The notes below the pieces were generated by a model that saw nothing but the letters and a program-made list of their open reading frames with translations, was not told where the DNA came from and did not search any database. The position numbers and the translations under genes were made by a program. From Arctopsyche grandis (Eukaryota; Arthropoda; Insecta; Trichoptera; Hydropsychidae): a stretch of DNA of 64,000 nucleotides. The DNA is taken from assembly GCF_051622035.1 (NCBI RefSeq), contig NC_135367.1:13320501-13384500 (forward strand). The letters are read 5' to 3'. Below are positions 44,483-49,300 of the stretch, one piece after another (position 1 is the stretch's first letter; each line of letters opens with the position of its first letter).

Positions 44483-46311
44483 CTAATTATTAAAAACATC
44501 GGAAGGTTTGGGACTGGCGGGTCCTGTAGTTGGAGTAGGGGTCGACGGTGAAGTCGGAGAACACGTATCAACACTGTTGCTATGTTGTCCCATTCCTCTG
44601 CCTTCCGACGTAGACGGCTCATTATCGCCCAAGCTTAGCCCTTGATCGTTGTCGGTTATACTGTCTTGAGTTACAAAGTTGTTCGCTTGTGACGTATCAG
44701 GAGAATCGCAATCCTCATTCAGCGATAGATTACCACCGGGCCGTTCGTCACCGGGATCGTTCTGATTATTGTACGAATTCTCTGGAGAGTTTCTCAATGA
44801 GTCTTCTCTTGCAGCGTCGTCAGCTGGCGCGTTATGATTATTACTCTCTTCAGGGGGGTGTTCGTGTTCGGCAAAGTAGTTGCAGACTCGTCCAGCTCCG
44901 CGTGGACACGTCCTTCTATACAGACTGCACGTTTCAAACACATTCCTACCGTAGCAGTGATCATCGGTGCATGCTGAAGTGCACGCCGAGTATTGTACAT
45001 CATCATATAATGAGAAATCTAAATCTATGACTTTGTATTCATTCTTACCACCAGAGTTTCCAACCCATAACGGTAGCCAACGGTTAGACATAAGCCATTG
45101 AAGTGAGCTCTTAGATATTCCCCGAATGTCAGCTGGAACTAGTGATGCCCCAATCCTATCGCCTTCTTCAGTTGGGATGTGCGGATTTTGATATGTTCTG
45201 TCAGCTTCGACCGTTTGATTTTCAATCCTGAACCTTGGGTTACCTTCTTGACGAGCGTGCGGAGTACAATAATGATCTATGTTGCCACAGGAAGAACTTA
45301 AATGGCGTTCAATGCGACCAATGCCTGATCCTAGCACATGCAAACGGCCATATGTATTTCCGACTCTACCGTAAACACAATTTGACAAAGCCGAAGCCTG
45401 AGGCTGAGATGGTCCACCGTTACTACTCTCTTCAATTTGCCTCTCTACGATGCGATTAGAATCCCGACCTTCTCGGCTACGGTCATTAAACTCTAACGTT
45501 TGGGAATTTGACGGTGAATGCAATGATTTTTTTCCAAAACATATATTCAAACTGATTGGACTCCCACTAGTTTGGTTGGAAGATTCACCGTTGGTCGCTA
45601 CTGGAGAAACTTTCAATTTGTTCTTCGCTTTAGTCGGAAAGCACTTATCAGCAAGCTTGACGGGTGCTTTGGGAAAATCATAATCGGATGAATTCTTTGT
45701 AGACTTCAACGATCCATCCCGAACGCTGTTCTGTTTCGTATTCTTCGTCACTGACTTGAACATTTTAAAGCGCCAATGAGTGGCCGCAGAAGACGTCGAA
45801 GTTGAAGGTTCTTCTAATCGTTCGTATATATGATTTGGTCTATTCAGATTGGGGCTCAGATCTAGGCGGAAATTTGGTGAGGATCGAGGCAATGTAGCGC
45901 ATCTTTCAATATCGGGTCTTTCAATTATATCAGCAGCCACTAGGACTCTGTCATGTTCGATCACGTTTACATGGTTGATAATTTCTAGTTCGTTAGCTCG
46001 GGAACAAGACGGCATGTCCACCGAGTGATTGGCGGCTGAATCATGTCGAGATGGTAACGTTCTGCAGTTGTCGTTTCTGGTTGATTTTTGTTGGTTATAC
46101 CGTCGTCGTGTTGTTGATGATACACTCTCACCACCGCATATTGAACTTCTGGCGCCGTTTCTGCTCTCACTGTCAAATTCTTCCCCCTCACTTGTTTGAG
46201 AAACATATCTAAAACGATATAATGTATTTAAAATAATGTTTCTATGTATGAGAATGTGTTCTGAATTTGATATATGTAAATTCAAACTAACTGAGAGGGA
46301 GGTGGGCGACG
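44483..46311 (-). CDS. kel: Kelch readthrough extension (ORF2)
   Basis: This is the part of the kelch transcript after the TGA at 46312-46314. In frame with ORF1, six sense codons (RRPPPS) and CA precede a donor (TCTCA|GTTAGT at 46292/46291). The next exon, 46208-44483, begins A|TAT after ATCGTTTTAG and stays open for 574 codons to a TGA at 44485-44483, so readthrough would add 581 residues after the recoded one. It is Ser/Asn/Pro/Glu-rich and probably largely disordered, with two ordered-looking islands: SLQWLMSNRWLPLWVG and a Cys cluster (CTSACTDDHCYGRNVFETC, then CPRGAGRVC). An in-frame ATG at 46285 lies in the intron, so independent initiation from an unspliced or alternative transcript is a weaker alternative. 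Drosophila kelch has the same ORF1-UGA-ORF2 design. I could not compare the ORF2 sequences here. Confidence 0.8.
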
Positions 46312-46314
46312 TCA
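46312..46314 (-). other. kel: Candidate leaky stop codon of kelch (TGA-C)
   Basis: The kelch ORF ends ...RPTPA then TGA followed by CGT. TGA with a following C is the most readthrough-prone stop context known. It sits in the same exon as the last kelch repeat, 20 nt before the donor. Confidence 0.7.
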
Positions 46315-49300
46315 GGCTGGTGTGGGTCGATCAATTATAGCTACTCCTGCGTAAGAACGGCCAGTTGACATGCCACTGGCAAGTGTTGTCCATGTTTCTG
46401 TCTTTGGATTATACACCTGAAATATAAAAAAAGTATATTTAATCTTAGTACAAATTGACTGTCCATATAAATGTATTGTATAAACAATAGTAAGGTAACG
46501 TAATTCTCATTCAGTCTAAACTAACCTCAACAGTATTTAGATTCGAAGTTCCATCATCTCCACCAATGACATATAAAAGTCCACGGTGGGGCAGGACACC
46601 AGCGTTACGTCGACAGATGGACATGTCTGGTGCTGGTCTCCACGATGATGTGCCAACTTGCCACACTTCAACTGTACGACGCACTTGAGGTCCATCATGA
46701 CCTCCTACCGCATATAGCACACCGTCTAACACTCCCACTCCTAAAAATACAACAAAATTATTAAAAACAATTCTAAATATAAATTATAATTGCACATATT
46801 ACAGAAAATGAGATATTACCAGCTCCACTTCTACGTGCAGCCATATCAGGGGCCATAGTCCAAGCATTGGTGGCCGGATCGAAGCATTCTACCGAATTCA
46901 AACATTGTCGACTGCTTCCATCATAACCACCAACCTAAATATAAAAATAGTTGGTATTCAATGATTATAAGGTTGTTGCTTTTTAAAATTTCGAAAATGA
47001 AATTTGTAGAATTAACTAACTGCATAAAGTTTTCCTTGAAGAACAGCTACACCGACGGAAGACCTACGTGTGGTCATGGATGCGAGAGGACGCCACGCTC
47101 CTAGTCTCGTATCTAATACTTCAGCCGAATTCAATCCTGTAGCTCCGTCAAATCCACCGACCTAAAAAAAATCTTTGTAAGTATAGACCTAAATATTGAA
47201 TTGATAATAAGCAGATGAACAAATACATACAGCATAAATACAAGAATCAATAACGGCAACACCGAGAGTAGAACGTCTTGCTTCCATTGACGGTGCAACT
47301 TGCCAAGAGTCGGTGTTTGGATCGTAGACATCAACAGTACGAACACGCAACGAACCATTGAATCCACCTACAGCGTAAACCTTACCGTTGACGACTCCAA
47401 GACCAGCTCTGTAATATTTGATAATTATGATAGTAAAAAATGAAACATACATAGGTAATTAGCATTAGCTTTGACAATTTTTCAATTAATTAAAAACATT
47501 CCAGTTGGTTTTGACATACTTGAAAAACCCAGATAAAACTGTAATTAATTTTTGTGAGTGTGTAATTTTTGAGTTTGTGTAAGTGATTTTTGACAAGATG
47601 AGAATGATAACTTCATTTCGTCATCATTCAACAGAATGAGAGCATTAAGTTAAGTTAAATATTACAACAGAATGTTTAAAAATTTTATATTTTTTTTGGT
47701 AATTCAAGCGCCATGGCTGTGATAATTTACATACAAATTTATTGGTAAATAAGGATTTGAAAGCTTTTTAAAATAAATAGAATACTGATAAAAGGCTAAA
47801 TTTTTTGTCTATTCATTGATAGATAGGGTGACCATACATCCCGTTTTGGCCAGGACGGTTTGTCCCAACGTTTTCGTAAAATTGTTTGATTTGTCCCATT
47901 TTATCCGTCCACTGATACATAGAAGAATTTTGTTATACAAATATTTCCATATTTTTCCTTATTTATCCTAATCAATTTGTTCCCCAAAAACAAATATTCA
48001 TTTACATACATCCATTTTAAATAACATTTAAATATATTGTTACATGTTTCTGGAAAAAAAAAAAAAATCGCTTTATGCTCAGCATAATTATTTTTAAATA
48101 ACTCTAAAATACAATATAATACTATTTTTAATTTTTTATCTTGTTTTATTTTCTTCTGTTTAAGAAATGTACGTTTTGATGAAAATTATACTACTTGATA
48201 AAAGAAGAAATGAAAACTAAAGAAATAAAGATTTTTGGACGTGTAACAAATTTTTTTTATATAGGGGGGGGGGGACATATTTTTTTGGAGATTTTGAGTC
48301 CTGGGAAATACATATGGTCACCCTATTGATAGATAAAGATTTATTATTTCGATGAGTGATTATCCCATGTTTACAGATTGTCATCAGTCTGAGTCCTTAC
48401 ACTTTTTTCCTTCAGTCTACATCCCAACATACTATTTCTTATCTAATTTTCTTCAGACAGGTCAAAAACATTTCTGAGAATTTAAGTTTATTTTACAATT
48501 TAAATCTTTAATATTCAATGTATAGTTCAAAAGTTATCAACGAAACAAATACTTCCGCTACTCATAGTCCACTATGTATAAATAAAACGAAACAAACAAC
48601 AATATTTAGAGTTCAAATTGAATGAACACAAACCTGCAACGTCTTGTTGCCATTTCGGCAGCATGGTACCAACGCTCCTGCTGCAAGTCATAGCATTCCA
48701 CGGATCGAATCGCTTTTGGAGCTTGTCCTCCGACCACCAACAAAACCTACAATATCCAAACATACATGTGTTAGAAAACAAAACGGTCAAATTCGACGAT
48801 GGTGTGATACATATTATATTTAGTTGGCATTCGAGATAACCTTGGGAGCATCTATGGGTTCACGAGGTCGACATCGCGGTGTTATGGCCGCTAGGCGTTG
48901 TTCCGGCCTCAGCAAGTGATAAGTCAAAGCCTCGATGAGTAAATCTTTGCAGCGTAGATCACCGCGGAGGGCTGGTTCTGTCTGGACTCGGTTCACTAAA
49001 CATTCCTGAAATAATTTGATGTTGATATATTAATTTTGTGATTTATTGGAGATATTTAATATGATAATTTTGTATGGAAATCTTACTTGGGATAGTAAGG
49101 GTAATCGAACGTGTTCCATGAGGGAAGCTAAATGTGGCTGACGCTGGGTTGGATTGTGAGCAGCCCACTGCAGTACACTTTCCAAGACCTGAATAATTTA
49201 ATTTAATTAGTACCATTTACAGAGCTCCACAGAATCGACTGACCATAAACGCATCCTAAGAATTCATTTTACATGAAAATCTTCTCTATTAATTTACCAT

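Follow-up and report, generated by a model that had tools for sequence, protein, structure and literature searches.

Translation of the Drosophila melanogaster gene kelch (kel) continues through a UGA codon, and proteins of 76 kDa and 160 kDa result (PMC4132726); an earlier, sequence-only reading of the DNA considered here was right to cite this gene as an established case of readthrough. The present analysis concerns a 64,000-nucleotide stretch of the trichopteran Arctopsyche grandis (the window; contig C13 in a genome of 475.7 Mb and 189 contigs) and was based on that one genome, solved protein structures, and published papers. The window carries a gene built like kel: an open reading frame (ORF1) of KLHL2/3 type, a terminal UGA, and a long second frame (ORF2) that would approximately double the protein (compare PMC4132726). 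As PMC3840789 implies, a methionine stands among the first three codons of the extension in the fly, whereas the Arctopsyche extension starts RRPPPSQYVS. The best explanation of this arrangement, and a probable one, is that the UGA is read through in a spliced mRNA to give a long ORF1-ORF2 protein.

The feature that sets the locus apart is an intron soon after the stop codon. The sequence-only reading described this placement as unusual, and so it is, but it is neither new nor unprecedented: Table 2 of Dunn et al. 2013 (PMC3840789) gives the extension of Drosophila RhoBTB as 3L:20374798-20374821^20374891-20374982, where '^' denotes a splice junction. In the same source, the RhoBTB extension has a PhyloCSF score of +154.91 and a predicted transmembrane domain, and RpL27A is also marked '^' but has a negative PhyloCSF score. 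In both fly RhoBTB and Arctopsyche kelch, a splice junction (predicted in kelch) splits the extension soon past the stop: RhoBTB has 23 nt, then a 70-nt gap and 91 nt, and kelch has 20 nt and 83 nt. The RhoBTB extension is short, with its predicted transmembrane domain, unlike the 574-codon frame of kelch. A third system is dfr (drifter/ventral veins lacking), where a stem-loop at approximately +9 to +59 promotes readthrough in flies and where both its distance and its stability matter; a region of kel with a predicted stem-loop also affects readthrough, and the passages of that report dealing with kel leave the action of the structure itself unsettled (PMC13170385).

A kelch gene of KLHL2/3 type and its UGA codon

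The minus-strand gene was modeled with 15 coding exons running from an ATG at 53482 to a TAG at 44483, with every join in one frame and a single internal stop. ORF1 comprises exons 1-14 up to the UGA (46315..53482, minus strand) and has 631 codons when spliced. Its domain set of BTB, BACK, and six kelch repeats is closest to KLHL2/KLHL3. In a search of the PDB, the KLHL3 BTB-BACK chain 4hxi covered residues 75-318, and the best natural-protein matches were the propellers of KLHL2 (2xn4) and KLHL3 (4ch9). By its sequence, this is a complete insect kelch gene of KLHL2/3 type. Exon 14, the last kelch exon (46292..46416, minus strand), carries the stop, a UGA at 46312..46314 followed by C. The alignment with KLHL2 and KLHL3 ends four residues before this codon, and the crystallized chains extend two residues past that point, so ORF1 stops at the normal KLHL2/3 C terminus and no domain is interrupted. 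The 20-nt tail of exon 14 that follows the UGA (46292..46311, minus strand) codes for RRPPPS plus two bases. Its GC content of 70% was equaled in 81 of 1874 20-nt windows in ORF1 and 33 of 1703 in ORF2, and in 24 of 5028 windows in the 13 other introns; none of the 981 windows in the 1000 nt downstream of ORF2 was as GC-rich.

The position of the UGA bears on the suggestion that the gene codes for one long protein and the UGA is a mistake in the assembly or a local nonsense allele, or, from the other side, that ORF2 is a decaying or chance frame. The base is known from one assembly alone. An error would, however, have had to fall exactly where KLHL2 and KLHL3 chains end, in a gene whose Drosophila counterpart likewise has a UGA between two frames (PMC4132726), and a chance frame does not fit 574 codons free of stops. 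This family of explanations is very improbable. Equally far-fetched are other forms of recoding: selenocysteine insertion at this codon, A-to-I editing that turns it into UGG, or a -1 frameshift on RNA that retains the intron. The frameshift draws some support from the ORF2 frame, which is open across the intron up to 46330, but no slippery heptamer was seen by eye upstream of the UGA, and retention is at odds with an AT-rich intron that has good splice sites. A cmscan search of 43400-46420 at E 5 found no SECIS family, the sole match being to a snoRNA family on the plus strand, and folds around the UGA show no prominent long duplex.

Predicted intron 14 and the choice of splice sites

The sequence-only reading had described a TGA-C, 20 further nucleotides, a GTTAGT donor, an acceptor at about 46209, and a 574-codon exon, and all of these coordinates proved correct on re-reading. 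The layout of UGA-C, tail, intron, and 574-codon exon in one frame is real. In unspliced RNA, the ORF1 frame stops after nine further codons (RRPPPSQLV), and removal of the intron is therefore needed to reach ORF2. Predicted intron 14 (46209..46291, minus strand; GTTAGT...TTTTAG) is 83 nt long, and nine of the 13 other kelch introns are 69-94 nt. Splice sites were scored with a position weight matrix (PWM) trained on those 13 introns, and the scores are rough because the training set is small. Intron 14 received 5.5 for its donor and 4.1 for its acceptor, against leave-one-out ranges of -2.7 to 8.6 for donors and -2.0 to 13.3 for acceptors, and GTTAGT serves as the donor in two of the 13. A frame-blind search for AT-rich sequence returned a block at 46290-46192, which meets the donor side within 1 base and the acceptor side within 17. 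Donors scoring at least 5.54 follow within 30 nt for 218 of 2913 TGA triplets, the kelch site included, counted over both strands of the window and one strand of L013-L015. We infer that intron 14 is removed by splicing.

The claim that 46209 offers the only sensible acceptor did not survive. Acceptor 46061 is also in frame and would drop the first 49 ORF2 codons, and acceptor 46260 scores 6.05, although the resulting intron would be only 31 nt. Frame continuity had also been taken as an argument for a fusion protein. Readthrough is still the best explanation, but continuity was given too much weight; alone it proves little, since one splice pair in three would match.

In a different route to ORF2, alternative splicing would drop the UGA, and ORF1-ORF2 proteins would arise without readthrough. 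Splices of this type, a possibility raised in the sequence-only reading, can indeed be found. Donor 46370 (CAT followed by GTCAAC) joined to 46208 or 46061 keeps the ORF2 frame without an internal stop, with summed scores of 7.1 and 7.5; the exon 13 donor in 46702/46260 gives 9.66 and a skip of exon 14 (46526/46186) gives 8.8, compared with 9.65 for 46292/46208, and scores down to -2.7 occur among the real donors of the gene. Pairs of this kind come easily, because 1064 of the 1229 in-frame pairs enumerated lack an internal stop. All of the UGA-removing splices delete conserved propeller sequence; even the mildest, from 46370, loses 13 residues that are near-identical in KLHL2 and KLHL3. The better-scoring skips of exon 14 (46526 to 46260 or 46208) break the ORF2 frame, and every such splice leaves the canonical stop and its following C unexplained. 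Alternative splicing is thus an unlikely, though not negligible, account of the locus.

ORF2 as the probable last coding exon

Exon 15 (44483..46208, minus strand) holds ORF2, 574 codons and a TAG. In 2000 first-order Markov sequences matched to it for length and composition, the longest run without a stop, taken over the three frames, averaged 95 codons and reached at most 229. A score of position-specific composition, with ORF1 as its training set, gave 76.8 for frame 0 over ORF2 and -13.8 and -63.0 for the other frames, and all 50 windows of 80 codons chose frame 0. Separation was weaker with a cruder codon log-odds score: frame 0 reached 247.8 and the two remaining forward frames 169.3 and 153.6, but one reverse frame, with 21 stops in it, reached 229.0. 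Agreement of codon usage with ORF1 (0.494 in frame 0; 0.267 and 0.051 in the others) does not discriminate, because introns reach 0.437. A script scan from the start of exon 14 to the end of ORF2 found no AATAAA or ATTAAA. The first AATAAA after the ORF2 stop (44389..44394, minus strand) is a possible polyadenylation signal, by its pattern, and a second lies at 44291. Given the open frame, the periodicity, and the absence of a poly(A) signal upstream, ORF2 would most simply be the last coding exon of kelch.

ORF2 matched only itself in its own genome; it is single-copy, and the splice cannot be proved from a retrocopy or paralogue. Comparison with viral contigs gave seven pattern matches and with prokaryote contigs 32, with no relatives in either set. 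The product is predicted to be disordered: it is rich in Ser (13.4%) and Asn (8.9%) and lies below the Uversky boundary. AlphaFold2, run on ORF2 alone as a single sequence, returned a mean pLDDT of 35.3, with 539 of 574 residues below 50 and a small better-scored patch near residues 370-400.

The first in-frame ATG of ORF2 is codon 65, and it raises the question of whether the kelch mRNA could be dicistronic, with ORF2 as its second cistron translated by reinitiation or internal entry. The 64 codons before this ATG are open and coding-like (frame 0 at 19.4, against -3.9 and -15.5, with ORF1 training; a frame 0 margin of 4.3 bits with ORF2 training), and they would be useless if translation began at the ATG. 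Their preference for frame 0 therefore speaks for translation entering from upstream. An out-of-frame ATG at 46206, 22 nt past the UGA in the spliced mRNA, could also be drawn into a dicistronic scheme; it opens a 73-codon +1 frame (MFLKQVRGKN...; 46206-45985, minus strand) that overlaps the start of ORF2. That frame may be chance, and its length is unexceptional, as another +1 run inside ORF2 has 74 codons. A dicistronic arrangement, although helped by the ambiguity of the earliest ORF2 codons between frames (see below), is improbable.

Proposed readthrough of the spliced mRNA

A UGA at the canonical C terminus followed by a long in-phase frame would place kelch among readthrough genes, an assignment that hinges on the predicted splice 46292/46208. 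The mature mRNA would carry ORF1, a leaky UGA-C, and the long in-frame ORF2. The Drosophila literature assigns Kelch a Cullin-3 role. Most ribosomes would terminate at the UGA and release a 631-residue Cullin-3 adaptor. Some would decode the UGA as an amino acid and extend the chain by 581 residues (seven codons around the junction and the 574 of ORF2), yielding a product about twice the length of the short form. The DNA itself shows the anatomy, the one frame, and a coding signature in ORF2; from it we infer a transcript running through ORF2, readthrough of the UGA, and any role that a hairpin might have. A review ranks UGAC as the leakiest, most permissive context (PMC9661723). According to the same review, nonsense-mediated decay spares stops near the last junction and is muted by low levels of readthrough.

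Several observations weigh against this explanation. Acceptor 46061 slightly outscores the proposed one at 46208 (4.51 versus 4.11), and some pairs that drop the UGA equal the score of the splice on which readthrough depends. Near its start, ORF2 has a less certain coding signature: the first 49 codons are ambiguous, with a frame 0 margin of -0.2 and, under ORF1 training, 4.8 versus 8.4 for frame +1. In shorter windows frame 0 was chosen in only 48 of 52 (64 codons) and 45 of 53 (49 codons). At E 1, neither Pfam nor the PDB yielded a match to ORF2. The strong CUA/CUAG motif described after UGA (PMC4132726) is absent from the kelch stop, where the sequence is CGU. Finally, GC-rich sequence 3' of a stop favors termination (PMC9661723), and the tail is 70% GC; a permissive UGAC and a termination-favoring tail are thus both present at the kelch stop.

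A predicted hairpin across the exon junction

Folding of the spliced sequence brings the last nine nucleotides of exon 14 (5' arm TCCCTCTCA, 46292..46300, minus strand, ending at the splice donor) opposite UGAGGGGGA of exon 15 (3' arm TGAGGGGGA, 46182..46190, minus strand), around an inner helix of five pairs. The predicted hairpin is 36 nt long, with an energy of -14.9 kcal/mol, and starts 11 nt past the UGA. The first 60 nt past the UGA fold at -18.8 kcal/mol when spliced, compared with -4.4 kcal/mol when unspliced; in longer unspliced RNA, the identical arms pair around intron 14. Kelch resembles dfr (PMC13170385) in having a predicted stem-loop close downstream of the stop. In contrast, dfr is intronless and its stop is UAG. 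In the kelch gene an intron separates the two arms of the hairpin, and the 3x2 interior loop is larger than the 2-nt bulge limit of the published criteria allows. The published fly screen took stem-loops of at least 35 nt, with a loop of 3-10 nt and bulges of no more than 2 nt, within 60 nt. The kelch structure narrowly fails this screen: at 36 nt with a loop of 3 it fits in size, but it has three unpaired nucleotides on one side of the interior loop, and it passes only if the bulge limit is 3.

Comparison with the rest of the gene lowers the standing of the hairpin. The relaxed bulge limit, combined with a start between +8 and +15, admits 104 of 1193 codon positions in the same coding sequence. 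Four spliced windows gave z-scores of -0.87, -1.05, -0.36, and -0.33, with no clear excess of structure past the stop, and pre-mRNA 46320-46210 gave -0.56. With the U of UGA numbered 0, the site ranked 6 of 1195 codon positions for the window +11 to +55, which was chosen post hoc from the fold; other windows gave lower ranks, at 39 of 1193 (+8 to +60), 41 of 1193 (+3 to +60), and 182 of 1179 (+3 to +102). A role of the hairpin in readthrough is offered as a hypothesis based on these predicted folds. In its fullest form, splicing would both open the route to ORF2 and assemble the stimulating hairpin across the exon junction, at the right distance from the UGA, and so set the ratio of short to long Kelch; this is speculative and rather unlikely. 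Exon-junction complexes sit 20-24 nt upstream of splice junctions. With the kelch junction 20 nt past the UGA, the complex would therefore cover the stop codon itself, and splice-licensed readthrough would then involve a complex seated on the codon to be decoded. No report of a readthrough hairpin across a splice junction was found in the literature surveyed, which consisted of listings and of passages or sections of papers. The kelch locus would belong to a known kind of gene; what is new is the hypothesis of a junction-spanning hairpin, which is testable and, if true, would couple splicing to stop-codon decoding.

A RhoBTB-like gene in the same genome

A RhoBTB query matched contig C5 in two adjacent pieces (63% and 74% identity) and contig C8 at the same E-value (43% identity). 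An exon bearing WPPVWY, which we take to be a RhoBTB motif, was found downstream on C5. The RhoBTB-like exon ends ...DEPSVPL, followed by UGA-C (L013 5781-5779, minus strand). A strong donor (GAG followed by GTAATT; score 8.95, matched or bettered in 7 of 2913 TGA contexts) lies 17 nt past the UGA-C, and a strong acceptor, also at 8.95, follows a 124-nt intron. The frame would read QELPRR-INFFMQTFTFIFITYLHIYF... and is hydrophobic, but the stretch is AT-rich, and AT-richness alone gives hydrophobic residues. With its UGA-C, donor, acceptor, and hydrophobic frame, this locus (L013 5781-5637, minus strand; G000:C5) is a candidate for a second readthrough gene with an intron just past the stop. 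Together with kelch it suggests a small, searchable class.

The Arctopsyche locus would add to the kelch readthrough case an insect gene whose leaky stop is in one exon and whose extension is in another, and genes of this build are easily overlooked. A screen that ignores splicing would miss the kelch extension, because the unspliced second ORF has only nine codons. In Jungreis et al. 2016 (PMC5100048), second ORFs were continued without splicing when sufficient 3' UTR annotation was lacking, and those with an exon break were generally put down to alternative splicing when the sequence leading up to the break scored as non-coding.

Other features of the window and genome

A Mis12-like kinetochore protein is encoded at window positions 54978-55613 (plus strand; 25.3 bits for Pfam Mis12, where the cut-off is 25.7), divergently from kelch and approximately 1.5 kb upstream of its start codon. 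On the same strand are a 718-codon open frame at 8519-10675, which by eye resembles a hAT-type transposase, and an open frame at 11328-12071 that we take, again by eye, to resemble casein kinase 1 exons. A bacterial-type promoter scan of the region is uninformative for an insect gene. Genome-wide, at least 150 Kelch_1 matches were scored of 1288 candidates, many of them clustered on C8 and C10. Among the matches listed, 12 hold one in-frame stop, always TAG; eleven of them are on C8 and the other is on C2, and these TAGs may be splice acceptors into which the match has run. Intron 1 of kelch contains long AT-dinucleotide microsatellites at approximately 52690-52930 of the window.

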